Assembly (NCBI GenBank): GCA_017400135.1
Contig: JAFPVJ010000007.1
Coordinates: forward strand, 1-64,000
Reading direction: 5' to 3'
Source of the DNA: Bacteroidales bacterium
GTDB lineage: Bacteria; Bacteroidota; Bacteroidia; Bacteroidales; UBA932
Length of the DNA stretch: 64,000 nucleotides
Within the stretch, counting starts at the first letter, position 1. Each line of letters starts with the position of its first letter. Made by a program: the position numbers and the translations under genes. A model generated the notes under the pieces. The model was not told where the DNA came from. It made no database searches and saw only the letters and a program-made list of their open reading frames with translations. Positions 6,569-49,932 of the stretch are shown here, piece by piece.

Positions 6569-6874
6569 ATGAAAAAAGTGAAGATCACCGCGGTTCGCAG
6601 GACCGAATATCCCGACCTGATGGCACGGTACGAAAACCCTATCGAGCATGCATGCGAGACCTGCCTGGGGCAGACTTGGATTTCAGTGGGCGGCCGGAAG
6701 CCGGAAGGCCTGTGCTCTGCCGCCTGGACTTCCATGCGTCCCTTCGTCCGAGCCCTCGCCCGCGGCGAAGGCAACTTCTACGACGGCTGGATGAAAGATC
6801 CCTTCAGCGCCATGATCAGCTGCAACGACGGCTTCCGCCCGGTCAGTTTTTATCTGGAAACGCTGGATCAGTAG
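6569..6874 (+). CDS. TIGR04076 family protein
   Basis: A 101-residue cytoplasmic protein of the small TIGR04076 family, whose function is unknown. The recognisable pattern is: MKKVKITAVRRTEYPDL at the N-terminus, CETCLGQ, PEGLCSAAW, PFVRALARG, WMKDPFSAMISCNDGFRPV. Four cysteines (in CETC, GLCS and SCND) are in positions that are usual for the family as I recall it. The start at ATG 6569 is preferred over an upstream TTG because the TATCTTTG box ends just before it. Its end overlaps the convergent repeat-protein gene by seven bases. Confidence 0.8.
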   Translation: MKKVKITAVRRTEYPDLMARYENPIEHACETCLGQTWISVGGRKPEGLCSAAWTSMRPFVRALARGEGNFYDGWMKDPFSAMISCNDGFRPVSFYLETLDQ

Positions 6875-7353
6875 CAATACAAAACCGTGTGCCAGACGGC
6901 CACGAACTCTACGATGGTCAGATATCCGTCCAGGGTGAAACGGACGTCTGAATTGTAATTGGACGTCCCGTCGTAGACCTTTCCGTCCCGGATATTGGCC
7001 AGGACGTCGGAATTGTAGATGGAGGTGCCCTTATAGATCTTCCCGTCGCGGATCGTCATCACGATGTCGGAGTTGTAGCTGGAGGTCCCCCTGTACACTT
7101 TTCCGTCCCGGACGGTGTACAGGACATCCGAGCGGTAGACGCTGGTTCCCTTGAATACCTGGTCCTTCCGGACGGTGCAGACGACGTCTGAATTGTACAC
7201 GGAAGTTTTCTTGTAAACCTTTCCGTCGCGAACGGTGCAGATCACGTCGCTGTTGTAGCGGCTCGTGCCTTTGTATACTTTCACATCCATGGGAGCAGCC
7301 TGGGTAAAGACCGATATAAGCAGTAATAATATGACGGCCAATTTCTTGAGCAT
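6868..7353 (-). CDS. secreted protein with six 20-residue repeats
   Basis: A 161-residue protein with a clear signal peptide (MLKKLAVILLLLISVFTQA). Residues 22-140 are six head-to-tail repeats of about 20 residues with the pattern [VI]RDGK[VI]YKGTSxYNSDVxxT. The regular Tyr/Asp/Gly positions suggest a stacked beta structure, with one strand pair per repeat. The last 21 residues (DGYLTIVEFVAVWHTVLYCY region) break the pattern and look like a separate cap. I recall similar repeat proteins in gut Bacteroidales but know no function. It lies alone, divergent from the lipoprotein island, with a TATCTTTA box upstream. Confidence 0.8.
   Translation of the reverse strand: MLKKLAVILLLLISVFTQAAPMDVKVYKGTSRYNSDVICTVRDGKVYKKTSVYNSDVVCTVRKDQVFKGTSVYRSDVLYTVRDGKVYRGTSSYNSDIVMTIRDGKIYKGTSIYNSDVLANIRDGKVYDGTSNYNSDVRFTLDGYLTIVEFVAVWHTVLYCY
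6934..7290 (-). repeat. 60-bp in-frame tandem repeats, six copies
   Basis: The coding repeats of the protein above are visible at DNA level as a roughly 60-base period (for example GATC/GGTC + GTCTGAATTGTA-like segments recurring on the plus strand). Copies have diverged by point changes but keep exact length, so the array could change copy number in frame by slippage or recombination. Confidence 0.85.
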
Positions 7354-7380: not shown

Positions 7381-7392
7381 TGAAATTTTTCT

Positions 7393-7400
7393 TATTTTTG
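7393..7400 (+). promoter_or_regulatory. -7 promoter box TATTTTTG for the lipoprotein island
   Basis: Exact consensus box 31 bases upstream of the short conserved ORF at 7432. It is the only good box before the three large lipoprotein genes, so they may be one transcript. Confidence 0.55.
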
Positions 7401-7431
7401 TTCATTACTAATCAGCTATAACCAAACTCCT

Positions 7432-7581
7432 ATGCTTAACAAGCCCGAGACCGTCAGTCCGGACGCACGAGCCTATTTGGCCCCCGCCGTCATCATTATC
7501 CCCATCTGTCCCGAAGATCTCATCTGCGAAAGCCCCCTCCCCGGCGGCAACGAAGGGATCGGCTTTGAGAACTGGAACTAA
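7432..7581 (+). CDS. short conserved protein upstream of modular lipoprotein
   Basis: A 49-residue reading frame. From Tyr15 on it aligns without gaps over 35 residues with the 45-residue frame at 49762-49899; both end in a C-terminus of the form CESPLPGGNEGIGFExWN. Between the two loci the codons of that segment differ almost only at synonymous positions, which is strong evidence that both are translated. The stop is followed by ACGGAAGGAGGA and then the ATG of the lipoprotein at 7601, and this junction is also conserved at the other locus. It has no signal peptide or membrane segment. The function is unknown; a leader peptide, a small partner or a secreted peptide precursor are all possible. 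I recall similar short Y-x-A-P...C-x-S proteins in Bacteroidales but no role for them. Confidence 0.72.
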   Translation: MLNKPETVSPDARAYLAPAVIIIPICPEDLICESPLPGGNEGIGFENWN

Positions 7582-7600
7582 ACGGAAGGAGGACTGAATC

Positions 7601-10600
7601 ATGAGAAAGAGTCTTTTCTTTGGGCTGATCGCTGCCCTGACGCTTGTTGTTTCCTGCACGTTTGAGCCGCAGGACCCGTATTTGTTCACCAAAGACATGG
7701 CTCTTACGGCCATCACGGAGCAGCCGACGGGGACCAGAACCATCGTGGAATCCGGCAACCAGGTCTGGTGGGAACCGGGAGACGAGATTGCCGTATTCTG
7801 GAAGGGCTGGTGCGGCAAATTTGTCTCCGACCTTTCCGCCCCGGCATCGACGGCCACGTTCCTGGGGTCGCTGGCGGGCTGGACGGGAGGCTCGGAGATC
7901 TGGGCCGTGTATCCCTATTCGGATGAAGCGAGTTTCGACGGGCAATGCATTACGACGACGCTCCCCTCCCGGCAAACTGCCCGGGCCGGTTCCTTCGCCA
8001 AGGACATGAACCTGGCCATCGCAAAATCCGTCAACCGCACGCTCGAGTTCTACAATGTGGGAGGCGGCGTCTGCTTCAGCGTAGCCGAAGACAGCGTCAA
8101 GAAGGTGATTTTTGAAGGCCTGAACGACGAGATGCTCGCCGGCAAGGTCAAAGTCGGGTTCGAGAACGGACGTCCGAAAGTGATGGAAGTGACCGAAGGC
8201 AGCCGCTATATCACGCTCCTTCCCCCGGACGGAGAAACCTTCCAGAAAAACCAATGGTACTATATCATTGCCGTTCCTGGGGCGCTGGAGAAGGGTTTCA
8301 AGATGAGGTTCTACAAGAGTTCCGTTTATGCCCAGAAAGTCTCGGAGGCCGCGGTGACCATCAAGCGCAGCATTTATGGCTGTTTGGAAGGTGCGGATGA
8401 GGGACTGGAGTATGTGCCGGTGCCGGAGCTGACGGAGTGGACGACAGACAAGACGATGCGTGGGATCCAGTATGAGGAGAAAGGTGGTGGTGAAGGAGAG
8501 GGGGATGAGATTGTTCAGATGCGCCCTGAGGCATTATTCGTGATGGATGACCTGAACAATCTGTTGGTTTCCTTTGATGACAAGAACTGGACGATCACCT
8601 ATCGCAACGGGCCAGCCCTGACCGATGCTGATATCAAGGTGGGGGATGTCCTGTATTCCATGCCGGTTGGGGAAATCGCCCCTGACGGTTATTTACTGCG
8701 TGTGATACATGTCCGCAAAGAGGGAGACCGGGTGGTATTCGATGTGGAGCCGACCGGTCTGGCGGCGGCGTTTGATCACCTTTCAACCGACATCCCTGTT
8801 GATGTAAATCAGTTAACGGAAGATTGCCTTACCTTTTACGACATTCTGGAGCAACCCGATCAGTCATGGCAGATTGGAAATTTTGACGCGAATATCAATT
8901 CACCCGTCTCAATTCCCACCCGCTCCATCTTTGAAGACTGGAGCGTTGACTTTAGCGCTGTTACGGATACCAACAAACTGAAAATCAAATTTGATGCTGA
9001 GGAAGCTAGCGTGTCCTATGTTTTGGCGGATGGTGATAAGAATCCAAAAACTACTTACGATCAAATCCGCCTGGTCATCAGATTTGAATATGGATTCGAT
9101 GATTGTTTCCACTTCGAATTTGATGCCTCCAGGGAATTCTTGTCGCTGGAGTTCTCACCGTCATTAGGCATCACCTGTGGCTTTCAGTACGGAGGGAAAG
9201 GGACCTTAGATCAAGTTCTAGACTTCTTGGATATCGGTGATGCTACTCCTCAATTGTGGGATGCAGGGACTGTCCGTGAGATGAGAGCCATGCAGGAAAA
9301 ACTGATGGGAAAAAGAATCAGAATCTGTTCCATCGACTTGGCAAAGGGGATGAAAGCGGTTAAGGCTATCGTTCGGCCGACAATTGATCTTTACGCCTAT
9401 TTCAAGATCAGTTTGGAGGGCAACCTGGAAGTAGCGTTCGGTTTTGAGAAAACTCGTTGGCATCTAGGTATAGAAAACATTCCTTACTCATTTCAGCCGA
9501 ACCTCAATAAGATGTTGCATCTTGCCGATCATTTAACCCCGGTAGCCAAGTTCATCTGTTCAGCAGAGTTTAAAGGTTCCACAGGACTTGGATTAGGCTT
9601 AGTGGCTCGCCTTCCCTCAGTAGCTGAGAAGGTTAGTTATAAGGATCCAACAACGAAAGAGGTAGAGGTACCCTGGATGGGCTTCTTCTGTGAGTGGGGA
9701 TTGAATGCAAAAGCAAAGACAAAGAATTGGGTCGATGTGCCCAGTGGGAAACTCCATACAGATCTCAGTGTTGATGTTTATAATGAGATTAATGGTTATC
9801 TAGAAGCGTTTGCTCATCTTAAAAACGACTTGTTATTTAACCCCAAGGTTGATCTCATACATAAGAGAATCCCGGAAGAGTCGGTTTATAAATACGAGTA
9901 TTCATGGGAGACAGAGCAGCGTTATCCACTGCCAATCCTGATTTCGCCTTCAAATCGTGAGGCAATTGAAGATAATAGCGTTTCATTGCAATGGAAGATT
10001 CCGAAACCGGATAAATCATTCCTCGCGGCAAATGAACAATTCCAAGATCTTACATTCTATGTTTATGCGGGGACGAATAAAAATGCAGTCAACTCACTTA
10101 ACGAATCATGCATTGTCGGCTATATACAGAATCCGAATGATACTACCAGGTTTGACTTGAAATCAATGGACTTTACCATTGAGAACATGAAAACCTATTG
10201 GTGGAAAGTGGTGTGCATAAATAGGAAGGGAGAGACCTATGAAAGTCCGTTGAGTACTTTCGACTGTGGATATGATGGAAAGCTTGATTTTGATTTGGAT
10301 CTGAAACGATGGCTGTCGGATCATTTCGAAGCCTTGGGAGACGTGTACATCCAAACGGATGGAACTATCCTCAGAACCCTTTCCAACATCAATGCATTAG
10401 CTGCGTTGAAGACTTTGGAAATAAAGGATGGCGGAGCCCACTACCACATTAAGTCCATCGATGCACTCTTGCAAAACCTCCCAGCCCTTGAGACCCTGGA
10501 TTGCCGGAATAATAAAATCACGTCACTAGATCTTTCTCATAATCCCAAACTGACTTCAATTGTCTGCAATGGCAATCAAATAAGCAGCCTGGATCTTAGC

Positions 10601-12799
10601 CGCAACCGTCAGTTGAATAATGTATCTTGCAAGAATAATCAATTGACAGAACTGAACCTGGCCAATTTAAGCAAATTGGAAAACCTCAGTTGTTCCGGCA
10701 ACACTGATTTCGAGGATCTTGATATCAGCGCCTGTCCTTCACTGGCTACCATGAAATGCGACAGTTGCAATTTCCGCACACTGGACCTAAGTAATAATCA
10801 AAACTTGATTGGTCTATTTGCTACTAACAATCGCATAGATTCTCTTGACATCAGCCGTTGTCCCATTCTGATCCGTCTGGATGTGTATGATCAATATGCC
10901 GTTCCACTGATGATATTGCGTTTGACCCATGCCCAGCATGATGGATTCGCACTTTTCAAAAGGCATGTATACATGGACCTCCAGTATGTGGATGTTTCCG
11001 GAATCGAAACCGAAGAGGCCACTGACATCACCAACCACAGTGCCGTCATTAAGGTCAATGCCCTGGACCGGAAGAATTACTCTTCTCTTAGGGTTTATTA
11101 TGCCTATAAAGAGTATTATCTGGAGCACGACTCCGAGTTTGCCAAATCCGAGATCGTCTATGACAAAGTCTCCCATTCGTTCTTGTTGGACAAACTCCTG
11201 CCTGACACTGACTATTACGCCCGCGGTTGCGGCTATGACTCGGAATCTAAGCAATTTGTCTACGGCAATACGATTCATTTCAAGACCCTGCCGGGAGATC
11301 CTGCACCCCAATTCTCGGACAGCGTTGATGAAGATGAATACGATGCTTTCAAAACCGTGCTTGTCGGAACGCGGGCCACGCAAAAGGTGACCATAACCAA
11401 CACGGGACAGCTGGACCTGGTATATCAAGTCATCAATAACGAGAATTCGCCCTTCAGGTTGACACCAACTACGGAGTGTACTCTCGCGCCTGGCGCCAGC
11501 AAGATACACACAATGTCCTTTACCCCCACCCAGGCCGGTGATTTCTACGATATCATCACCATCCGCTCCAACGATCCCAAGGGCGACATTCACTATTATG
11601 TGTGGGGAACTGCGATTGGAGATGATCTGCCTGCCGGAACACCGAGAATCGTCGACCTGGGACTCTCCGTTCATTGGGCATCTTATAACCTCGGCGCCTC
11701 AAGGCCGGAAAGTCTCGGTAAGAAGTTTGCCTGGGGAGAAACGAACACCTGGAAGAATCATTCCGGAGTCGAGAATCCATGGGCTTATTATAAATGGAGT
11801 GATGCTGATGATCCTGACTTGGCCGAGGGGTCTCTCCTAACTAAGTATTGCTCATACCATGACGAAAAAACTGTCCTCGACCCGGAAGACGATGCCGCAT
11901 ATCAGTATCTCGGTGGTCATTGGAGAATGCCGACAAGGGAAGAATGGTCGGAGCTTTCCTACAGCTGTGACAAGACTTGGAGCTCCAATGTAGTTCAGTT
12001 TACAAGCCGGATCAATGGGGAGAGTATCTACCTGCCCATCACTTCCTATTGGACATCATCTCTCTACTGGGACGATTATGGTGCCAGCGTTGAAATAAAC
12101 GAAACCTCAATCAAGACCAGCTATTGTTATGAGGAACGTTGGAAAGGACTTGCGATCCGACCCGTCTATTTCGTCCCGATAGAAAGTGTATCCCTTAATA
12201 AATCACTAATTGAGGTTAATAATTTTGAAAGGGATGTTGTGCTGAAGGCAACTGTGACTCCAGCCGATGCCACGAGAAAGCATTTTGTCTGGGAAGTTGA
12301 TACTCCAAACATCGTGAACTATATCCCTCAAGACGGCGGAGACACCCGAACCGTTTCATTCGACTGGGCCATAGGATCCACAGATATTACCGTGTATGCC
12401 GATGACGGAAAGAACCCGGCAAAGACTGCCACATGCCGGGTTGTATCCAAGATTTATATTGAAGGAGCGGAGATTATTACTCCCAATATAGAGACCTCTC
12501 CCAACTATTATGATGACCATACCTTTCATATAATTCCAGGTGAGAAGTTATCGTTCAGCTCCATTTATCATCCGGAGAACGCATCAGAGTTCACAGACAG
12601 CAGACAATGGATAAGTGATGATCCGTCCGTTGCTTTCATTAGCGAGAATGGACTCGTTACGGGTATCAAATCCGGATCTACTACCATTCGGGTTCGATAT
12701 AAATCTTGGAACAACACCTTTAAGGAAGACTCCTGTGCGATCATAGTCTCAGATCCTGAAGGCTCCCACGAAGGATTTGGAAATGAACATTGGGATTAA
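7601..12799 (+). CDS. giant modular surface lipoprotein (fimbrillin-like, LRR, Fib_succ, Big_2)
   Basis: A 1732-residue lipoprotein; lipobox Cys19 (LVVSC). Modules by eye: fimbrillin-like N-terminal domain about 25-290; a low-complexity GGGEGEG linker; an unrecognised beta-rich region about 300-770; an FN3-like domain about 780-890; a leucine-rich-repeat block about 910-1100 (repeats of LDCxNNxITSLDLSxNPKL type); a second FN3-like domain 1134-1231; an ASH/choice-of-anchor-type domain 1237-1337; one Fib_succ domain 1349-1524; and two Ig-like Big_2-type domains 1527-1720. Such proteins are likely surface-exposed adhesins or pilus-associated anchors (inference). The first kilobase is G+C-rich like the surrounding genome, and the rest is AT-richer. 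The start has a strong AAGGAGG. The tail ends in GFGNEHWD. Confidence 0.88.
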   Translation: MRKSLFFGLIAALTLVVSCTFEPQDPYLFTKDMALTAITEQPTGTRTIVESGNQVWWEPGDEIAVFWKGWCGKFVSDLSAPASTATFLGSLAGWTGGSEIWAVYPYSDEASFDGQCITTTLPSRQTARAGSFAKDMNLAIAKSVNRTLEFYNVGGGVCFSVAEDSVKKVIFEGLNDEMLAGKVKVGFENGRPKVMEVTEGSRYITLLPPDGETFQKNQWYYIIAVPGALEKGFKMRFYKSSVYAQKVSEAAVTIKRSIYGCLEGADEGLEYVPVPELTEWTTDKTMRGIQYEEKGGGEGEGDEIVQMRPEALFVMDDLNNLLVSFDDKNWTITYRNGPALTDADIKVGDVLYSMPVGEIAPDGYLLRVIHVRKEGDRVVFDVEPTGLAAAFDHLSTDIPVDVNQLTEDCLTFYDILEQPDQSWQIGNFDANINSPVSIPTRSIFEDWSVDFSAVTDTNKLKIKFDAEEASVSYVLADGDKNPKTTYDQIRLVIRFEYGFDDCFHFEFDASREFLSLEFSPSLGITCGFQYGGKGTLDQVLDFLDIGDATPQLWDAGTVREMRAMQEKLMGKRIRICSIDLAKGMKAVKAIVRPTIDLYAYFKISLEGNLEVAFGFEKTRWHLGIENIPYSFQPNLNKMLHLADHLTPVAKFICSAEFKGSTGLGLGLVARLPSVAEKVSYKDPTTKEVEVPWMGFFCEWGLNAKAKTKNWVDVPSGKLHTDLSVDVYNEINGYLEAFAHLKNDLLFNPKVDLIHKRIPEESVYKYEYSWETEQRYPLPILISPSNREAIEDNSVSLQWKIPKPDKSFLAANEQFQDLTFYVYAGTNKNAVNSLNESCIVGYIQNPNDTTRFDLKSMDFTIENMKTYWWKVVCINRKGETYESPLSTFDCGYDGKLDFDLDLKRWLSDHFEALGDVYIQTDGTILRTLSNINALAALKTLEIKDGGAHYHIKSIDALLQNLPALETLDCRNNKITSLDLSHNPKLTSIVCNGNQISSLDLSRNRQLNNVSCKNNQLTELNLANLSKLENLSCSGNTDFEDLDISACPSLATMKCDSCNFRTLDLSNNQNLIGLFATNNRIDSLDISRCPILIRLDVYDQYAVPLMILRLTHAQHDGFALFKRHVYMDLQYVDVSGIETEEATDITNHSAVIKVNALDRKNYSSLRVYYAYKEYYLEHDSEFAKSEIVYDKVSHSFLLDKLLPDTDYYARGCGYDSESKQFVYGNTIHFKTLPGDPAPQFSDSVDEDEYDAFKTVLVGTRATQKVTITNTGQLDLVYQVINNENSPFRLTPTTECTLAPGASKIHTMSFTPTQAGDFYDIITIRSNDPKGDIHYYVWGTAIGDDLPAGTPRIVDLGLSVHWASYNLGASRPESLGKKFAWGETNTWKNHSGVENPWAYYKWSDADDPDLAEGSLLTKYCSYHDEKTVLDPEDDAAYQYLGGHWRMPTREEWSELSYSCDKTWSSNVVQFTSRINGESIYLPITSYWTSSLYWDDYGASVEINETSIKTSYCYEERWKGLAIRPVYFVPIESVSLNKSLIEVNNFERDVVLKATVTPADATRKHFVWEVDTPNIVNYIPQDGGDTRTVSFDWAIGSTDITVYADDGKNPAKTATCRVVSKIYIEGAEIITPNIETSPNYYDDHTFHIIPGEKLSFSSIYHPENASEFTDSRQWISDDPSVAFISENGLVTGIKSGSTTIRVRYKSWNNTFKEDSCAIIVSDPEGSHEGFGNEHWD

Positions 12800-12810
12800 A
12801 TCGGAATGCC

Positions 12811-14877
12811 ATGAAAATAGTTAATAATATCTTCTTTTCTATCTGTTTCTTTTGCGCATTTGTTTCATGCCAAGTGAAAGACGTTGCCGAGTCACAAGAG
12901 TCCCTTTTGACTTTTTATGCTTCCGGTGAAATTGAGACGAGGACTCAACTTGGTGAAGGCAAATGGGGAAGCACAAGCGTCTTATGGAGCCCTTTTGACG
13001 AAATCAACATCTATTGTAAAAGCGGCGGCGGAAAGTTTGTATCCTCCAATACTGAACCAACAAATGAAACGGTAAAATTTGTAGGTTCCTTATCCAATGT
13101 CACAGATAGAGGTAAGAATCCTTACTGGGCCGTATATCCGTATTCAGAGAGTAACATCTTTGACGGCAATGCCATCGAAGTTAGTCTCCCTTCGGAACAA
13201 GAGGCAATTGCCAAAGATATTACCAAAGGGCTGCTGATCAGCATGGCTCGATCCAATGATAATAACTTGTATTTCTATAATCTTTGCAGTTGTATTGGCA
13301 TCGGAGTCTTTGAGGAAGGAATCACCAAAATTATATTCAAGGGCAATGACAATGAGCCTCTGGCGGGAAGAGTTCGAGCATCTTTTGACGAATCCGGCAT
13401 TCCTTATGTGACAGAATTCAAGGATGCGGCCCATCAAATCACTTTGCTGGCTCCTGAGGGCGGTGTTTTTACAACCGAAGAAGAGTATTATGTGGTATGC
13501 TTTCCCGGCTCTTTTCCCCAAGGATATACCATTGAGCTATACCGTGGCGAGGATTTGATTTCCATGAAAAGGATTGAGACGCCCGTCAACCTGCCACGGG
13601 CACGGAAAGTACCCCTGTATAGTTTATACTCCGGAGGGACTATATATAGCACTGAAAGAAACGGAAAGAATTACTCAATTAAGTATAGTGTTTATGTCGG
13701 TTGGCCTAATAAGGCCCACTACTGGGTTACCATCGATGGTAGGGATTTTGAAATCCCGGAAGAGTTTGAATCCTACCAATCAGCCCTGTCACAACAAAGT
13801 CCTACTAAGATGGGGCCGGCTGTCGCCATTGATACAGATCGAGATATCATCTATTTCGCCAGACTGAAAGAGACGTCCTATGGGAATTTGGATGATGGTG
13901 TCGTGTATACTATCACGTCTTCCGGTATTGAGAAAGATATAATACCCGTTGGTTACTATCCTTATTTTCATTGGGATGAGAAACAAGAAAGACTGGAACT
14001 TCATTCCTTTTCTTCTTTGTCTGAAGATCGAACCTGTAATCGTTTCGTTTCTTATTTAGACTTTGACGGGAGATGGGTCTCTATTTACAGCTACTCTTCT
14101 TCCTGTGAATACGCGTCTTCTGGATATAACAATAAAAGACTCTCCGACGTTTTATTATGGTTTACCGGAAAGGACCCTTCTTCTCCTCCCATGGATGCCG
14201 TTGAACTGGGTCTCTCCATCAAATGGGCTACTCGTAATCTGGGTGCGGACTCTCCTGAAAAATTTGGTTTCTACTATTCTTGGGGAGAGTTAAATCCGAA
14301 ACACGATTACTCGCTGGACACTTACCGGTTTTACGCGGGAGAGGGAACTTATGACTGGTATGGACGGTTTACGCCCACACTCACCAAGTATTATCTGGAA
14401 GACCAGAAGTATGCCCTAGATGACGAAGATGATGTTGCGCTGGCACAACTGGGCGATAAATGGAGACTCCCAACCCCGGATGAATGGCAGGAACTCATGG
14501 ATAATTGTTCCTGGGATTGGATCTCTCAATCTGGAGTTCTTGGTTACAAAGTGACCGGAGATAACGGCAACAGCATCTTTCTCCCCGCTGCAGCTTATCG
14601 TAATGGTTCTTTCTTGACCCAAAGTGACATGTACTATGGGGAAGAATTCACTGGAGACTATCTCTCTTCGCATACCACCCACGATTGGTATGATAACCCT
14701 CCGACCCATTCTGACTATTACATGGGCGCCTGGATATTCCGTTTTGACGAATATGGCGGCGAAGGTTTCGATTACGGAACCCGATGGTTTGGTTATTCCG
14801 TCCGGCCCGTCTATGATGAATACACCCACTCCGGTGGGAATGAAGGGATCACTCCCGATGATGACATTAATTTATAA
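12811..14877 (+). CDS. modular lipoprotein with fimbrillin-like and Fib_succ domains
   Basis: A 688-residue lipoprotein with lipobox Cys20 (AFVSC). A fimbrillin-like domain covers about 25-265 (ending PRARKVPLYSLYSGG), a region of about 200 residues with Tyr-rich strands follows, and one Fib_succ domain spans 462-673 (MDAVELGLSIKWATRNLGA to FGYSVRPV). The start at ATG 12811 gives a clean signal peptide; an upstream in-frame ATG at 12790 would add seven charged/polar residues. It lies 11 bases after the giant lipoprotein and 15 before the next one, so the three are likely co-transcribed. The C-terminal tail contains SGGNEGI, a piece also seen in the short conserved protein at 7432. Confidence 0.86.
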   Translation: MKIVNNIFFSICFFCAFVSCQVKDVAESQESLLTFYASGEIETRTQLGEGKWGSTSVLWSPFDEINIYCKSGGGKFVSSNTEPTNETVKFVGSLSNVTDRGKNPYWAVYPYSESNIFDGNAIEVSLPSEQEAIAKDITKGLLISMARSNDNNLYFYNLCSCIGIGVFEEGITKIIFKGNDNEPLAGRVRASFDESGIPYVTEFKDAAHQITLLAPEGGVFTTEEEYYVVCFPGSFPQGYTIELYRGEDLISMKRIETPVNLPRARKVPLYSLYSGGTIYSTERNGKNYSIKYSVYVGWPNKAHYWVTIDGRDFEIPEEFESYQSALSQQSPTKMGPAVAIDTDRDIIYFARLKETSYGNLDDGVVYTITSSGIEKDIIPVGYYPYFHWDEKQERLELHSFSSLSEDRTCNRFVSYLDFDGRWVSIYSYSSSCEYASSGYNNKRLSDVLLWFTGKDPSSPPMDAVELGLSIKWATRNLGADSPEKFGFYYSWGELNPKHDYSLDTYRFYAGEGTYDWYGRFTPTLTKYYLEDQKYALDDEDDVALAQLGDKWRLPTPDEWQELMDNCSWDWISQSGVLGYKVTGDNGNSIFLPAAAYRNGSFLTQSDMYYGEEFTGDYLSSHTTHDWYDNPPTHSDYYMGAWIFRFDEYGGEGFDYGTRWFGYSVRPVYDEYTHSGGNEGITPDDDINL

Positions 14878-14892
14878 TCAGGAGGAAACAAG

Positions 14893-17800
14893 ATGAAACA
14901 GACTATTATATCCATCAGCATATTGTTCTCCCTGATTGTCTTTTCCAGCTGTCAGAAACAGCAGGAAAATACAGCCACTACGGAAGTCAAACGGGCCCAA
15001 AGTATCCTGACGGCCACTTTGGAAGGTGGCAAGGAAACACGTACGGGTCTTGACAACCCCGAGAACGGTGTATATTATCCTCATTGGATAGAGACCGATA
15101 AGATAGCCGTATATGGCAGAAACGGGAAACAAGCGGATAAGTTTCTCCTGCATACCGGCGCCGGAACGGCTACAGCCACTTTTGCCGGTCCGGAACCGGG
15201 AGACAATCCAGTTGGGCTATACCCTTATTCCGACATTACTGAAGAAGGCCTGAACGACAATGTCCTGACGCTTGAACTTCCGGCCATCCAAGAATATTCC
15301 TATCGGTCGTTTGGAGACGGAGCCTATCCAATGCTGGCCGTGAGCCAGTCGGGCAATCTCGAATTCAAGAACCTGTGTTCCGTTCTGATCATTCCACTGA
15401 CGGGAACGACAACCCCGGTGGAATCCATTCGTTTCATTGCCCATGATGATAATACGCCCGTGAGCGGAAAAGCAACTGTCCGGACTGATTTTGACACGGA
15501 GCCGGAACTCATCATGAAAGAGGGAGAGTCCCGGGCTGTCACTCTCCAGTGCGGAGGTGTCTATCTACTCCGGGATGTTCCCACCTATTTCTTCCTGGTC
15601 ATTCCACCCGGAACCTATAAAGGCGGATTTGACTTGAAAATCATATCTTCGGCCGGATCTTTAACCCGTAGCGTCAATACTGACGTTACTTTCCGCCGTT
15701 CCAAATACCGTTCGATCTCCACAATCGACTTTATCCCAGAGGAACCTTACACACCGGTTCCCGACATCGTTGACCTTGGACTTTCCGTTCCATGGGCATC
15801 CTGCAATCTGGGCGCATTGAGATCGGATGAAGAGGGATATTATTATGCATGGGGCGAGACACAGAAGAAAGAATCTTATTCCTGGAGTAATTATGCGTTC
15901 GGCAGCAGCAGTTCGAGTCTGAATAAATATACTTCTTCGGACGGGAAAAGTATCCTGGAGCCGGAGGATGATGCCGCCGCAGTACAATTGGGAGACAAAT
16001 GGAGGATTCCAACGGAGGCAGAATTCCAGGAACTCCTTGAAAAATGCAGTTGGACTTGGAAGGAAAGCCGATATAGCTATCTTGTCACCGGCCCTAATGG
16101 CAATTCCATCTACATTCCGGCAGCAGCCTCCTCCGAAGGAACAGACGGGTATGGTTCAACGGAATTCGGATGGTACTGGTCCTCCTGTCTTAATGTGGAA
16201 GATGGGAAAAACCGGCCTTACTACCTCTATTTTTCAGAGGCGTTTTCCGGCCCGGCGCTATACGGCAACGGTTACCGTCCTACGGGAGCATCCATCCGTC
16301 CAGTCTATGGCAATCCTCCCATACATGCAAGCAGTGTCAGTCTGGACCACACCGAATTGGAACTGACAATTGGGGAGCAGGTGCAACTCAAAGCCACGGT
16401 TCTTCCGGAAAATACATCTGTCAAACTCGTCTCTTGGTTCAGTTCTGACAACTCCATTGCAAGCGTTTCCACCGATGGTCTCGTGACCGGTACCGGAAAC
16501 GGAACGGCAACCATTACGGTCAAAACCGTTGACGGAGGAAAGAAAGCAAACTGTAAGGTTACAGTCGGAACTGGTGGGACGGACAGTCCCAGCATTGTCG
16601 ACATGGGTCTGTCCGTGGGTTGGGCATCGTTCAATCTGGGTGCGTCAAAACCGGAAGAACCCGGTTACCATTTTGCCTGGGGAGAATTGACGGAAAAGGC
16701 TTTATATCAATGGTCAACGTACAAGTGGTGTAACGGCACAAATAAGAGTCTGACCAAGTATAACAACCTGGCCGAATATGGCTATAATGGCTTCGTGGAT
16801 AATCTGATGGAGTTGGATCCCGAAGATGATGCCGCACAAGTATATCTCGGGCAAAAATGGCGGATGCCCACATGGGATGAGTGGATTGAACTCTGCGACA
16901 ACACCACATGGACATGGACAACAGTCGGAGACATGGGGGGATACAAGGTTGTCAGTACCATCAATGGCAATTCGCTCTTCTTCCCTGCGGCAGGCTATGG
17001 ACCTTATTCCCAGTATCCTTCAGCGGTTGGAGAGGCTGCTTGCTACTGGTCCAATACCATCGTCGATTTCCAGCCCAGTTCAGCTTACGCCATTTATTTC
17101 GATACGGAAAGGAAGCCTTGGCCACGTGCTGATTACGAAGGAAGGGAGGGTCGCTATTCCATCCGTCCCGTATTCGGAGATTCGGCATTTACACCCAGCA
17201 TATCCTTAGACCATTTAGAACTGGAATTGTCTGTCGGAGGAAGAAAGAAACTGATTGCTACGGTTCTTCCGGAGAGCGCCTCCGACTCTGATAAGGAAGT
17301 CCATTGGTCCAGTTCCGATCGTTCCGTCGCAATCATCGATTATGACGGCATTGTGTGTGGCTTAAGTGAAGGAACCGCCATTATCACCGCAACGGCATTT
17401 AATGGAAGGAGGGAAGCGACCTGTCGCGTGACCGTAGAGAATAAGACCATTGGCGTGCCCGAAGCGGTTGATTTGGGCCTGTCCGTGCAATGGTCAACCT
17501 TTAACCTGGGCGCAGCGGCGCCGGAGGACGACGGTCTGTATTATGCCTGGGGCGAAACTACACCGAATGCATTTGTTTCCAGTTCCAATTATAAATGGTA
17601 CTCCTATCAAGATAGGACTTATCTGAAATATAATTGGATAGAGGGATCCGGGACCGTTGACTACAAGTATTATCTGGATTTAGAAGATGATGCCGCTCAT
17701 TATAATCTTCATGGAGATTGGCGTATGCCTACCGCCTTTGAACAGATGGAATTAATGTATCACTGCGAATGGACCTATGTCAAGAACTATCAAGGAAGTG

Positions 17801-18336
17801 GCATCTCTGGTTGTATTGTCCACGGAGCGACGGAAGAAACCTGCGACAATACTATTTTTATTCCTTCCGGTTCTTATCAGAGCTCCACACTTGAGTTTTC
17901 AAAGTCGTATATCCAAGGCCCCTATGCTCAAAACGGTATGGTTACAGGGGATGATGCTTTGGAATATGGGGATTATTATTATTCAGCTTGCGCCATGCAT
18001 CGTTTATCTTCTTTCTTAATTCGTCCTGTTTCCGGCCCGCGTGTCGCTTGGTCCGCCATCCCCGGGGATCTGGAATTCGGCAATGTCCCAGTAGGGTCAA
18101 CTGCCACTAAACCGCTAATAGTCAAGAATACAGGAGAATCAACGATAGAGATGAATGTGGAAGCTAGAGATCCGTTCTCCATGGATGTCTATTCCGTAAC
18201 CCTCGCGCCCGGTGAATCGCAGACGATCAATGTTTCGTTCTCTCCTACCGAAAAAAGGGATTACAAGGGATCGACAAGCATCGCTGTACGTGGAATGGGC
18301 AGGCCTTGGATCAATATATTTGGTACAGGCATTTAA
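14893..18336 (+). CDS. modular lipoprotein with three Fib_succ and two Big_2 domains
   Basis: An 1147-residue lipoprotein with lipobox Cys20 (VFSSC). The fimbrillin-like N-terminal domain covers about 38-280. Then come Fib_succ 1 (291-474), a Big_2 Ig-like domain (477-560), Fib_succ 2 (567-763), a second Big_2-like domain (767-850), Fib_succ 3 (855-1051) and a C-terminal ASH-type beta domain (1055-1147, GDLEFGNVPVGSTATKPL...). Each Fib_succ copy shows the hallmarks VDxGLSVxWAxxNLGA, YYAWGET, DAAxxxLGxxWRMPT and SIRPV. A good AGGAGG lies upstream of ATG 14893. Surface attachment is inferred from the lipobox and the module types; no ligand can be read. Confidence 0.88.
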   Translation: MKQTIISISILFSLIVFSSCQKQQENTATTEVKRAQSILTATLEGGKETRTGLDNPENGVYYPHWIETDKIAVYGRNGKQADKFLLHTGAGTATATFAGPEPGDNPVGLYPYSDITEEGLNDNVLTLELPAIQEYSYRSFGDGAYPMLAVSQSGNLEFKNLCSVLIIPLTGTTTPVESIRFIAHDDNTPVSGKATVRTDFDTEPELIMKEGESRAVTLQCGGVYLLRDVPTYFFLVIPPGTYKGGFDLKIISSAGSLTRSVNTDVTFRRSKYRSISTIDFIPEEPYTPVPDIVDLGLSVPWASCNLGALRSDEEGYYYAWGETQKKESYSWSNYAFGSSSSSLNKYTSSDGKSILEPEDDAAAVQLGDKWRIPTEAEFQELLEKCSWTWKESRYSYLVTGPNGNSIYIPAAASSEGTDGYGSTEFGWYWSSCLNVEDGKNRPYYLYFSEAFSGPALYGNGYRPTGASIRPVYGNPPIHASSVSLDHTELELTIGEQVQLKATVLPENTSVKLVSWFSSDNSIASVSTDGLVTGTGNGTATITVKTVDGGKKANCKVTVGTGGTDSPSIVDMGLSVGWASFNLGASKPEEPGYHFAWGELTEKALYQWSTYKWCNGTNKSLTKYNNLAEYGYNGFVDNLMELDPEDDAAQVYLGQKWRMPTWDEWIELCDNTTWTWTTVGDMGGYKVVSTINGNSLFFPAAGYGPYSQYPSAVGEAACYWSNTIVDFQPSSAYAIYFDTERKPWPRADYEGREGRYSIRPVFGDSAFTPSISLDHLELELSVGGRKKLIATVLPESASDSDKEVHWSSSDRSVAIIDYDGIVCGLSEGTAIITATAFNGRREATCRVTVENKTIGVPEAVDLGLSVQWSTFNLGAAAPEDDGLYYAWGETTPNAFVSSSNYKWYSYQDRTYLKYNWIEGSGTVDYKYYLDLEDDAAHYNLHGDWRMPTAFEQMELMYHCEWTYVKNYQGSGISGCIVHGATEETCDNTIFIPSGSYQSSTLEFSKSYIQGPYAQNGMVTGDDALEYGDYYYSACAMHRLSSFLIRPVSGPRVAWSAIPGDLEFGNVPVGSTATKPLIVKNTGESTIEMNVEARDPFSMDVYSVTLAPGESQTINVSFSPTEKRDYKGSTSIAVRGMGRPWINIFGTGI

Positions 18337-45995: not shown

Positions 45996-48900
45996 TCATT
46001 CTGAAACAGGACGGATCGGATGTCCTTCACAACGGGGAAACGCCCGTAAAACTTCCACTTCAGAATAATCTTGATACAGGCAAAGCCCTTCAGACAATGC
46101 TGAATCAGGATAATTGGCAACGTGAGTTTGAGCCAGGGAAGAGGACCGGTATGGATAATGGGTCCAGCTGCTTCCCCGAGCCGGGATAAAGATACTGTTT
46201 TCATTCCGACCCGTGACGCGATAACCGCTCGCCCCGTTCTGGGTAACCCATTCCCAGGTGCAGTTATGGATCAACTCCCGCCACTCGTCCATCGTCGGCG
46301 TCCGCCAATTATCACCGAGTAAGACATGGGCGGCGTCATCTTCCGGATCCAGGACAACCTTGTTGTCAGTACAATACTTGGTCAACGAATACATGGATCC
46401 ATCGCACCACTTATAGTTGGACCATTCAAAATACTCTTTCGGCTTCGTCTCTCCCCAGGCATACAGGCATCCTCTTCCCTCGGGTTCCGAAGCCCCCAGA
46501 TTGAATGATGCCCATTTGACGGAAAGGCCCAGGTCAACAGCTTCCGGGACAGCCTTGACGGTGACTTCGCAGGTGGCCATCTTGCCGCCATCCAGGGCAG
46601 TAACCGTAATTGTTGCGAAACCGCCCGAGACGCCCGTCACAATGATTTGGTCTCCATTTCCCAATGCTGCCTTCGCCACTTTGGTGTCGCTGGACGATAT
46701 AATCCTTCTGCTTCTGAAGATTGCGTTTTCCGGCTGGATCGTATTCTCCAGCGTCACTGTTTCACCCACGCCTATGACAATCTCCGTCTTATCCAGCGTA
46801 ACACTCTCCACGGGGATATAAGGCCGCCCGGAAACAGGACGGATCGTCAAGCCGTAACGCCGGTACCAGCCTGAAATCCAACAGACTCCCTCTGCGTCAA
46901 AATTCACGGCGACGGACAGATCCGGCCTGGTTGTATAAAGAGAGGATGTCCAATATAAACCTTCAGCATTCAAGAGCTCGATGGACGTGTTATATCTTTC
47001 TCCTGCGGCGGGGAGGAAAATACTATTGCCGTTGGGACCCGTCACCTTGTACCCGTTGACACCGCCCTGCATCGTCCATTCCCAGAAACACTCATCCTTC
47101 AGCTCATTCATTTCCGCCCAGGATGGCATCCTCCAGTCTCCTCCGAACGCCACATGCGCCACATCGTCTTCCGGATCCAGGACCGTCTTTCCATCCGTGA
47201 ACCCATCGTATCCATATACGGCCCTTGTGCAATATTTTGACAAATCCCTGGAATCCCACATGTAAAACTTATAGGCATTCCAATCATATCCTCCTTCAAA
47301 AGACTTTTCCCCATAATCACTCCAATCTTCGGGCTTCCAAACCGGGAAATCCGACTGTGCATATCCGGGTTCATAATGGGTTATCGTTTCGCCCCAGGCA
47401 TAATAGTCACCATAGTCCTCCGGTCGGGAAGCACCTATATTGAAAGATGCCCATTTGACCCCTGAAGGAAGCCCCAGATCTACCGGATCGGGACAGCCGA
47501 CCCTGACCGTGCATTGGGCCACCTTCGAGCCATCCATGAGAAGGGCGTAAATGACGGTTTCCCCGAGGCCGACACCTTTCACTTCGCCTGTGGAGGATAC
47601 GGTAGCGACCTTCTCCCTGTCACTGATCCAAAGAATCGCCTTATGGGTCGTATTTTCCGGAAGGACGGAAGCATTCAGGGTAAGCGTTTCTCCGATCTTG
47701 AGATCGAGTTCGGTCTTATCCAACGAGAAGCTTTCGGCAAAAACAGGAGCAGGACCGAAGACCGGACGGATGGATATGCCAGAACAAAGATCGACCCCCG
47801 GCTCAGTCAGGAGGCAACGGTCTTGATAAGGAAAATCATAATCATTTTCGTCCCATTCGTCCATTTCCGGAGTAAATCCGAAAATCCAACCACCGACCTC
47901 TCCATCTTCAACACTGAGTTCGGTAGAAGCCCAGAATACTCCCAGCTCACCAACGTCACTGATATCGGAACCATCTCCCGCGCCACCGCCGGGAGGAAGG
48001 ATGATGCTGTTGCCGTTGGGACCGGTCAGTTTCGCGCAAGTCACTCCACCCAGGGTGACCCATTCCCGGGTGCACAGGCGAGCCAACTCATCCCATTCCC
48101 CGGCAGTGGGCATACGCCAATCTTCTCCGAGATGCACATGGGCGGCGTCATCTTCCGGATCCAGCAGCCATTTGCCATCCTGGAATCCATCAAATCCGAC
48201 ATCGGGATCAGAACAGTATTTCGTCAGTCCATGGGCCCCTTCTTCTATCCTGTACCACTTGTACGTTCTCCAATTGAACACCGACTTCGGTTCTGTTTCA
48301 CCCCAGGAATAATAATTGCCGTACTCCTCCGGTTTCGAGGCGCCCAGGTTGAAGGATGCCCACTTGGTGCCGGAAGGAAGGCCCAGATCCACGGCCTCGG
48401 GGACTTCGTAGGAAGGCTCTTCCGTGGCCCGGATCCGCTCAGCATATTCGTTCCAGGCCGAGACATACTGGTCCACGACATCCTCAGGGACGGAGATGGG
48501 GCAGTTACCGGAGTTGGCGAATGCATCCGTTCCGATGGCGGGCGGCGTGGGAGACAGTACTATGATGGACTGGAGACCGGTACAGCCGTTGAAGGCGTTG
48601 TCACCGATGGATGTGACGGTTTCCGGAATGGTGACAGAAGTCAACTGCTCGCAGCCGGCAAAGGCGCCGTCTTCGATCCGGGTCAGACCGGTGAAATAGA
48701 CCATCTCATCGAAGGATGTGATGTCGGTTCCAGCGAAGATGCTCACCTTATCGTCATCGGCACGGGTCTGGGACTTGTCCACCAGGAAAGAGCGGACGAT
48801 TGCCGCTTCACGGACCGAAATCCTGCCGTCTCCGGTCACGTCAAAATGGCTGGCCAAAATAGACTTCACCTTCTCGTCCTTGAAGGCGATGATGCCGTCC

Positions 48901-49742
48901 GCGCAGGGCACATAGCTTACACCTTCGTCCGCACGGGTCACGGTCCCGTAGATGCTCCGCTTGATCGTGACGGACTTGTCGAAGACGCGGCCTCCGTGCG
49001 TGTCCTCCTTGAAGAAATCCAGGGCGAAACCCTTCTCCAGCGCACCCGGAATGGCGACAAAGTAATACCAGGTGTCTTTTACGAAAGATTGGCCGTAAGG
49101 GGCGGTGAGTATGATGGCCTGCTTGCCTTCCACGACATCCAGGACCGCCGGCTCGTCGTTCTGGAAACCGACCTGGATCTTACCGGCTAGGACTTCGCCG
49201 TCCAATCCCTGCAGGATCACCTCCTTGATGCCCTCTTCCTGGACAGAGAAACGTACACCGCCGCCCACGTTGTAAAACTGAATCGTATTGGAAGTGGTAT
49301 GGGCGATGGCAAGATTCGCGTCACGCGCGAAAGTGCCCGGCTGGGCCTGCTGCCGGGAAGGCAGAACCGCCGTGAGGACCCCGTCCTCAAAACTCGCTTC
49401 CCAAGAATCGGGATACAGGGCCCAAACGTCCATGCCGGGTTCCCAAATGCCTGTTTCGAAGTAACCCCGGAAAGGCGCCGTCTCGCAAGGCTCGGAAATC
49501 TGCGAGTAAAAATATCCTCTTTGTCCGCCACTGAAAGCCACAAATGAATCTCCCGGTTGCCAGTAGATCCGGGCGGAGGTTTCATCACTTTCAGCCACCA
49601 GGGTTCTCGTCCCGGCCGGACACTCCGTCAAAGCCGTAAAAGTCACATTGGCCTCGGGTTTAAGATCCTCTTCGGGGCCCCGGACACACGCGACAAGGGA
49701 AACAAGGGCAAACGAAAGGCCCAAAATCATGCTTCTTTTCAT
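45996..49742 (-). CDS. modular lipoprotein with EF-hand, BspA-type LRR, three Fib_succ and two Big_2 domains
   Basis: A 1248-residue lipoprotein, lipobox Cys19 (SLVAC). The fimbrillin-like N-terminal domain (about 25-285) is a close paralogue of that in the protein at 7601: both contain AIPGALEKGF/AVPGALEKGF and VTIKRSIYG. Next come an EF-hand-like loop DVTGDGRISVRE (about residue 293), a BspA-like leucine-rich segment (331-421, IEDGAFAGCEQLTSVTIPETV), Fib_succ 1 (447-658), Big_2 (659-744), Fib_succ 2 (747-975), Big_2 (976-1061) and Fib_succ 3 (1066-1248). ATG 49742 follows a conserved CGGAAGGAGGA. The short conserved protein gene lies directly upstream. Probably a surface adhesin or pilus-linked protein; ligand unknown. 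Confidence 0.88.
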   Translation of the reverse strand: MKRSMILGLSFALVSLVACVRGPEEDLKPEANVTFTALTECPAGTRTLVAESDETSARIYWQPGDSFVAFSGGQRGYFYSQISEPCETAPFRGYFETGIWEPGMDVWALYPDSWEASFEDGVLTAVLPSRQQAQPGTFARDANLAIAHTTSNTIQFYNVGGGVRFSVQEEGIKEVILQGLDGEVLAGKIQVGFQNDEPAVLDVVEGKQAIILTAPYGQSFVKDTWYYFVAIPGALEKGFALDFFKEDTHGGRVFDKSVTIKRSIYGTVTRADEGVSYVPCADGIIAFKDEKVKSILASHFDVTGDGRISVREAAIVRSFLVDKSQTRADDDKVSIFAGTDITSFDEMVYFTGLTRIEDGAFAGCEQLTSVTIPETVTSIGDNAFNGCTGLQSIIVLSPTPPAIGTDAFANSGNCPISVPEDVVDQYVSAWNEYAERIRATEEPSYEVPEAVDLGLPSGTKWASFNLGASKPEEYGNYYSWGETEPKSVFNWRTYKWYRIEEGAHGLTKYCSDPDVGFDGFQDGKWLLDPEDDAAHVHLGEDWRMPTAGEWDELARLCTREWVTLGGVTCAKLTGPNGNSIILPPGGGAGDGSDISDVGELGVFWASTELSVEDGEVGGWIFGFTPEMDEWDENDYDFPYQDRCLLTEPGVDLCSGISIRPVFGPAPVFAESFSLDKTELDLKIGETLTLNASVLPENTTHKAILWISDREKVATVSSTGEVKGVGLGETVIYALLMDGSKVAQCTVRVGCPDPVDLGLPSGVKWASFNIGASRPEDYGDYYAWGETITHYEPGYAQSDFPVWKPEDWSDYGEKSFEGGYDWNAYKFYMWDSRDLSKYCTRAVYGYDGFTDGKTVLDPEDDVAHVAFGGDWRMPSWAEMNELKDECFWEWTMQGGVNGYKVTGPNGNSIFLPAAGERYNTSIELLNAEGLYWTSSLYTTRPDLSVAVNFDAEGVCWISGWYRRYGLTIRPVSGRPYIPVESVTLDKTEIVIGVGETVTLENTIQPENAIFRSRRIISSSDTKVAKAALGNGDQIIVTGVSGGFATITVTALDGGKMATCEVTVKAVPEAVDLGLSVKWASFNLGASEPEGRGCLYAWGETKPKEYFEWSNYKWCDGSMYSLTKYCTDNKVVLDPEDDAAHVLLGDNWRTPTMDEWRELIHNCTWEWVTQNGASGYRVTGRNENSIFIPARGSSWTHYPYRSSSLAQTHVANYPDSALSEGLCLYQDYSEVEVLRAFPRCEGHPIRPVSE

Positions 49743-49761
49743 ACAGCGATCCTCCTTCCGT

Positions 49762-49899
49762 TTAATTCCAAGGTTCAAAGCCGATACCCTCATTCCCTCC
49801 AGGCAAAGGGCTTTCACATAAAACGTTTTCCATCTGGAATGGAAGAATCGTGGACTCCGGCGCTACATACACGCGGTCCTGCTCAGTTATTTGTTTCAT
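49762..49899 (-). CDS. short conserved protein upstream of modular lipoprotein (second copy)
   Basis: A 45-residue frame, paralogue of the 49-residue frame at 7432-7581. From Tyr11 the two align without gaps to the end; the last 18 residues are the same but for one position. It ends in GFEPWN. The junction to the lipoprotein start (TAAACGGAAGGAGGA then ATG) is also conserved. It has no signal peptide. It begins 33 bases after the galE stop, with a TAACTTTC box in between, so it is either co-transcribed with radA-galE or has its own weak promoter. Function unknown. Confidence 0.72.
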   Translation of the reverse strand: MKQITEQDRVYVAPESTILPFQMENVLCESPLPGGNEGIGFEPWN

Positions 49900-49903
49900 A
49901 GTA

Positions 49904-49911
49904 GAAAGTTA
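49904..49911 (-). promoter_or_regulatory. -7-like box TAACTTTC
   Basis: One base off TAnnTTTG on the minus strand, ending five bases before the ATG of the 45-residue gene. Confidence 0.35.
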
Positions 49912-49932
49912 AATGTCAATCTTTTACGGAAA

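Follow-up and report, generated by a model that had tools for sequence, protein, structure and literature searches.

Small proteins and lipoproteins at the locus

Within the window, which is the whole 64,000-nucleotide stretch of DNA analysed here, two short genes stand directly ahead of genes for large lipoproteins. The first (7432..7581, forward strand) encodes a small protein of 49 residues that is built of two modules, an N-terminal part of the form Y-x-x-P...C-x-S and a tail, PGGNEGIGFENWN. The second (49762..49899, reverse strand) encodes a paralogue of 45 residues with the tail PGGNEGIGFEPWN. Both frames lie exactly where the initial annotation had put them, and its gap-free alignment of the pair also holds, running from the Tyr to the end with an Asn/Pro exchange as the sole difference in the last 18 residues. 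A search of the window's own genome with the first copy retrieves the second at E = 3.8e-13, which excludes chance as the source of their likeness.

The gene behind the first small protein (7601..12799, forward) encodes a lipoprotein of 1732 residues in which an N domain belonging to the fimbrillin-like profile A4 is combined with LRR_4 and Big_2, and which ends in EGSHEGFGNEHWD (codons 12758-12796). It is followed by a second lipoprotein of 688 residues (12811..14877, forward), which starts 11 nt past the previous tail and ends in GGNEGITPDDDINL (codons 14833-14874), and by a third of 1147 residues (14893..18336, forward), which is the last of the run and has no tail. At the second locus the lipoprotein has 1248 residues (45996..49742, reverse) with LRR_5 and Big_2; there is no lipoprotein directly behind it and it also lacks a tail. 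Both small proteins have their stop codon 19 nt 5' of the ATG of the large lipoprotein, and AGGAGGA is found in each of these junctions (7582..7600, forward, with the motif at 7587-7593; 49743..49761, reverse). The 15-nt junction between the second and third lipoproteins (14878..14892, forward) contains the same motif at 14880-14886. Divergent from the first small protein gene is a gene (6868-7353, reverse) for a secreted-looking protein of 161 residues with a match to Bflower_3 (Pfam, 6-fold beta flower, E 1e-33).

Selection on the small proteins

The initial annotation had held that the DNA differences between the two copies are mostly synonymous and that the peptide itself is under selection, and both statements are borne out. 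The stretch from Cys to Trp, 17 codons long, differs between the copies at 14 bases, and 3 of these differences are nonsynonymous (Nei-Gojobori, paths averaged); when 14 changes were placed at random in these codons the median was 12 nonsynonymous changes, and 3 or fewer were seen in 0 of 2000 trials. Upstream of the Cys the pair has 26 differences, of which 16.6 are nonsynonymous, and these counts show that the N-terminal half of the pair is freer than the part from Cys to Trp. Among 24 relatives the ratio pN/pS falls from 0.68 for the N part to 0.36 for the C-x-S part and 0.26 for the tail, a contrast that is favoured by the search pattern used to find the relatives, as this demanded the Tyr, the Pro, the Cys/Ala, the GG, both Glu and the Trp. 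The test on the window pair alone is free of columns imposed by the pattern, the pair itself having been picked by the initial annotation. Across the 24 relatives pS is 0.75-0.80, so the synonymous sites are near saturation, and the low pN/pS in the tail and the C-x-S region shows the small proteins to be under purifying selection at the protein level, strongest in the tail.

This selection bears on the idea that the small proteins have no function of their own and are the conserved edge of duplicated surface-gene cassettes. Many paralogues do adjoin variable surface genes, and the junction DNA is related within the window's subclade. Protein-level selection at near-saturated synonymous sites argues against such an edge, as does the use of all four Gly codons at both invariant Gly positions (columns that the search pattern required), and we regard the idea as very improbable.

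Spread and anatomy of the family

A search with profiles made from window and locus copies matched the family in at least 185 of 300 genomes of the window's genus (E <= 0.01), and in the window's own genome matches were found at 13 places or more (profile, E <= 5). In a sample of 294 genomes of the order a genus-based profile matched at least 8 and a broader profile (E <= 0.003) at least 14, the own genome being included both times, and in a phylum sample of 247 the own genome was the sole one matched. These counts are lower bounds, because short profiles miss much. The close-relative pattern gave 15 named loci, which belong to Bacteroidales or Bacteroidia MAGs, and a ruminant gut sample is named for 9 of them. 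Searches of Pfam, NCBIfam and PDB with 47 distinct members or their profiles gave no relative of the small protein (single matches at E 0.03 or worse), and the Pfam scan of the 47 members gave one chance-level match to an unrelated family and no C-terminal sorting domain. We also did not find the family described in open-licence papers. The family of roughly 45-residue proteins is thus real and apparently undescribed. A phage or plasmid origin was set aside, since a single viral scan with the window subclade and a single tblastn against plasmids with a peptide of family f107 both gave no relative.

The anatomy of the family consists of Y-x-x-P, 13 residues, [C/A]-x-S, and then a variable acidic tail which is usually aromatic-ended. 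This core pattern fits 66 of 90 lipoprotein-linked members and did not fit the other 24. Among the 66 fitting members there are 3 to 29 residues ahead of the Tyr-x-x-Pro, and the first position of [C/A/S]-x-[S/T] is C in 56, A in 5 and S in 5; Val and Ile look frequent, on inspection by eye, among the 13 residues after the Tyr-x-x-Pro. From the Tyr to the [C/A/S] the spacing is 17 residues in 51 of these 66, and the same spacing is seen in 19 of 22 members that are linked to secretion cargo (see below). As for the tail, 89 of the 90 members are net acidic by 2 or more over their final 15 residues, 63 have a Trp among the final eight, and 85 have an aromatic residue among the final five. The initial annotation had reasoned that stops in the frame as frequent as in neutral DNA would speak against a selected peptide; among the matches listed, which are best matches only, two have one in-frame stop each (G289:C43 and G216:C40). 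The stop codon TGA is rare in the small proteins (9 of 90) when compared to long genes at the same loci (181 of 635).

Among the candidate functions proposed earlier was a precursor cut at the Gly-Gly to give a secreted or modified peptide. In the window copies the GG does precede the conserved end, and with a Gly-Gly in about half of the members there is some likeness to double-glycine leader peptides. However, unlike in such leaders, the Gly-Gly is not conserved (44 of 90 members), and no peptide-processing transporter was seen by eye among the frames around the window copies. We have therefore dropped this candidate to the level of a slim chance.

Partner lipoproteins

In the window's genus the proposed link to lipoproteins stands. 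A lipoprotein follows 37 of 40 picked matches (36 found by script and L053 by eye), these 40 having been hand-picked for score and spread from the best matches listed, and many of them having been seen earlier with short flanks. The lipoprotein start lies at -35 to 118 nt from the peptide stop when starts are chosen by script; with refined starts the gap has a median of 13 nt and quartiles of 11 and 17 (n=90 pairs). Small proteins of other families of the order (f109, f104 and f55) likewise precede signal-peptide frames. The three picked matches without an intact lipoprotein behind are L044, L050 and L068. The L050 peptide precedes an enolase-like frame and the L068 peptide stands behind an M64-peptidase-like frame, both named by eye. 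At L044 (G179:C50) the lipoprotein is reduced to a stub of 30 residues; the peptide frame there is intact with two extra end residues, and a galE-like frame lies upstream, like at window 49762. Gene calls were made with our own script (longest frames, a lipoprotein-signal pattern and a peptide pattern) and no trained gene finder.

The description of these lipoproteins as fimbrillin-like is correct in part. No Pfam fimbrillin family is matched (E <= 0.01) by the two lipoproteins that adjoin a peptide, nor by any of three window lipoproteins scanned, but 2 of 12 related N-terminal domains of the same profile do match Mfa_like_1, with a best E of 1e-9. To this extent the partner lipoproteins may share a related N domain with the fimbrillin-like lipoproteins. 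The small protein itself is unlike them, since by eye it is without a signal sequence and it matches no family. Among 19 listed of the 21 fimbrillin-like domains in the own genome, a peptide precedes 9, a tail-bearing lipoprotein precedes 4, and the other 6 have neither ahead of them (C19, which is among these 6, was left uncalled by the gene-calling script), and these six speak against a general need for a preceding peptide or tail.

Gene junctions

A Shine-Dalgarno-like 5-mer is found ahead of 27 of 90 lipoproteins that come after a peptide, compared to 10 of 85 lipoproteins that come after a long gene. Its frequency is 14 of 170 before other internal genes, 8 of 247 before first genes and 2 of 61 before first lipoproteins, and ahead of the peptide starts it was seen in 0 of 90. 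The excess comes partly from the window's subclade (10 of 12), with 17 of 78 in the remainder. At the fetched loci the junction thus retains a Shine-Dalgarno sequence more often than other gene starts do, and this in a class whose ribosomes are reported to leave such sequences unrecognised, rpsU being a special case (PMC9976891).

These features bear on the possibility of a leader that acts in cis, in which translation of the tail that ends the preceding frame would couple or tune translation of the lipoprotein, either via the nascent chain or via termination-reinitiation. The tight gap (interquartile range of 11-17 nt, n=90) and the enrichment of Shine-Dalgarno sequences where ribosomes of the class are reported to be blind to them (PMC9976891) both favour it. 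Folding the RNA of the two window junctions, on the other hand, gave nothing better than shuffles (z = 1.30 and 0.04), which counts against the leader; an RNA element at the junction was set aside, as shuffles of these two fold equally well.

Leader and arrest peptides such as TnaC, SecM and ErmCL are short frames directly before a gene, conserved towards their end and often with a Trp. The small protein resembles them in being, in the window's genus, a short frame before a gene, with an end that is conserved at the protein level and often has a Trp. It differs from them in that folding of the two window junctions gave no RNA structure beyond chance, and in that its conserved residues are at no fixed distance from the stop: in 25 relatives with a GG-x-E tail the distance from the conserved Trp/Leu to the stop is 0 (3 relatives), 1 (12), 2 (8), 3 (1) or 8 (1), and this variation speaks against a cis leader.

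Tail-like ends on lipoproteins

What the initial annotation had missed is that two lipoproteins of the same operon, ending at 12799 and 14877, carry a tail-like C-terminus themselves. Each of these two has the next lipoprotein within 15 nt. When 196 distinct lipoprotein ends were scored against the tails of small proteins, 16 reached the tail cut-off of 36 and 180 were below it. Sorted by what follows, tail-like ends occur in 12 of 41 lipoproteins with another lipoprotein within 45 nt, in 0 of 17 that stand ahead of a separate peptide, in 2 of 39 ahead of some other gene and in 2 of 99 with none nearby. The comparison of 12 of 41 with 4 of 155 for the rest gives a Fisher value of 1.6e-6, and such P values overstate independence, because many of the loci are related and were chosen for holding peptides or tandem lipoproteins. 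The cut-off of 36 is one of three used, and at 38 or 40 the counts become 10 of 41 versus 4 of 155. Two of the 12 tail-bearing lipoproteins (L176 and L180) look like chance; in the scoring two further tails were added by hand, and the comparison set includes the peptide of the own operon where one was called. Taken singly, several lipoprotein tails are not above the maximum of 60 shuffles, including both of the window ones (42 against 43 for lipoprotein 1, and 37 against 39 for lipoprotein 2).

The operons L074 and L189 each have three alike tails, on the peptide and on two lipoproteins, those of L074 ending in DEELNP. For 11 lipoprotein tails compared to 91 peptides (the set of 90 and one added by hand), the best match is of the own operon's type in 7, where the type was judged by tail sequence and is not always the exact peptide; in the other 4 it ranks 9, 30, 63 and 72. 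The tail could on such grounds be a C-terminal tag for sorting, anchoring or turnover, read by one factor on the small protein and on some lipoproteins. The tail-like lipoprotein ends, their likeness within L074 and L189 and the 7 tails that best match their own type all favour a tag. It has against it the 4 tails that do not, the 180 of 196 lipoproteins under the cut-off and the tails that singly are within shuffle range, and overall we judge it unlikely.

For a leader acting in cis the tail-like ends of non-final lipoproteins are favourable evidence. Against it, 29 of the 41 lipoproteins with a lipoprotein directly behind are tail-less, and at L074 one tail is on a gene without a same-strand gene close behind. 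A strict rule, by which a tail occurs only before a next lipoprotein, was rejected; it is broken by those same 29 tail-less lipoproteins among the 41 in tandem, by L074, by L192 (where the next gene is 166 nt off) and by two tails that stand before other genes. A single run at L192 (G023:C1) holds two proteins with tail-like ends, GNHEGVGFDNWNY and EGGVGFKDL, and on neither side of them did the script call an adjoining peptide.

A second genomic context

In the genomes of a family here called f107 the small protein stands behind a large protein that ends TGI...YDLxGRR...GLYIVNGKKVIVK. Short C-terminal domains (CTDs) on type IX secretion cargo of Prevotella intermedia are described in PMC11969387, and as far as the sequence pattern goes the f107 end agrees with them. 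As in that cargo, the partner in this second context ends TGI...Y-D-L-x-G-R...G-x-Y-I...K; unlike the cargo domain, the small protein is a product of its own and has no match among CTD families. Pfam recognised none of the eight f107 cargo ends scanned. In the genomes G405 and G565, 24 of 32 peptides (20 of 25 and 4 of 7) are behind a short-CTD cargo domain, 23 of them within 70 nt and one at 140 nt, this adjacency being counted by eye from coordinates with one listing that runs to E = 0.3. The short-CTD profile (A8) was built from cargo ends before peptides, and the peptide profile (A5) includes peptides of the same genomes. Direct adjacency to the gene of a surface lipoprotein or of type IX secretion cargo is thereby shown, and the claim that the family precedes lipoproteins, which is right for the window's genus, is too narrow for these two genomes of another family.

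Seen from the cargo, 24 of 136 short-CTD matches in G405 and G565 have a peptide and 112 do not, so the peptide is not a general requirement for export. In G054 two peptides follow proteins above the TIGR04183 cut-off; with Pfam Por_Secre_tail one of the same two proteins is above the cut-off and the other just under. Both contexts can occur in one genome, as G405 also holds a lipoprotein-linked member (L092/L211), and in G492 lipoprotein-linked members occur together with one (L249) whose preceding frame has, by eye, a cargo-like end. The own genome was matched neither by TIGR04183 nor by the short-CTD profile. At two f107 loci (L208 and L218) the peptide was not caught by the pattern. At G405:C28:42757-43133 two small-protein matches stand in tandem behind one short-CTD match, and at G405:C14:100526-100684 a peptide precedes a secreted frame, with a short-CTD match ~2 kb further on the same strand.

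The 24 of 32 peptides behind a cargo gene contradict a pure upstream leader, so the peptide is not simply that. Moreover, a hairpin with a T run, resembling an intrinsic terminator, is found within 110 nt 3' of 11 of the 28 f107 peptides listed, and a position behind the partner gene and before a terminator-like site is a further difference from TnaC, SecM and ErmCL. A last point against the cis leader comes from L238, in the distant genome G524, where a typical N module, MKKIYTQPRIETVATTPQQILCASGG..., continues in frame into a lipoprotein signal, the peptide and lipoprotein parts being uninterrupted by a stop. The fused frame has 370 residues, and Pfam assigns it no family.

Proposed role and comparison with known systems

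Selection at the protein level, the near-fixed spacing of the N module, the two gene orders, the two export routes and the fusion point to a protein that works with its neighbour. The fixed order and gap in the lipoprotein context, the Shine-Dalgarno sequence at the junction and the tails on non-final lipoproteins point to action at the polysome or to tight co-production. From the evidence of selection and context together with that of the junction, we rank first a cytoplasmic small protein of two modules which is co-transcribed with one large surface protein and acts locally on it before or during its export, although we hold this most probable reading tentatively. The genes of the small protein and the surface protein would share a transcript, and the small protein, with no signal sequence visible by eye, would probably stay in the cytoplasm. 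There, at the polysome, it may bind either the pre-protein encoded next to it or a shared factor of export or assembly, with the tail as its putative contact part, and the short and often Shine-Dalgarno-bearing junction could serve the joint production of both products. A partner acting locally would explain the tail that ends a preceding lipoprotein as well as the whole small protein fused before a lipoprotein signal.

The same evidence places the cis leader second, as a possible but doubtful explanation. In the window operon all three lipoproteins come after a tail-ending frame, and this arrangement ahead of every lipoprotein is no less compatible with a cis reading. The rigid N module, however, is left unexplained by it. 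The local partner has its own difficulties, in that a tail exported on a lipoprotein cannot remain a cytoplasmic partner and in that three of the 40 picked matches lack an intact lipoprotein behind them. Somewhat less probable again is a movable C-terminal signal, in which a nascent acidic and usually aromatic-ended tail before a surface-lipoprotein gene would license the production or export of the next protein; the tail would for this purpose sit on a stand-alone small protein or be grafted onto the previous lipoprotein, in a class of bacteria that seldom uses Shine-Dalgarno signals otherwise. The presence of tail-like ends on some of the surface proteins suggests a shared role of small protein and tail in making them.

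Returning to the local partner, a similar arrangement of genes is known from FAD-I, RapA and RapB, small proteins in the operon of the large surface adhesin RadD (PMC7023056). The family is likened to them by gene arrangement, in that a small protein is encoded with a large surface protein. Their hosts, unlike those of the family, are oral fusobacteria, and FAD-I is itself a lipoprotein (PMC7023056).

If the family contributes to the making of surface adhesins and of type IX cargo, it would be an overlooked part of surface building in gut and rumen Bacteroidales. The exchange of tails with lipoproteins would then offer a natural experiment by which action in cis could be told from action in trans.

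The -7 element of Bacteroidales promoters is TAnnTTTG. Sequences that by eye are like it stand just 5' of both peptide starts in the window, TATTTTTG (7384-7432) and TAACTTTC (49899-49912), and the latter site would imply an almost leaderless mRNA for the 45-residue peptide.
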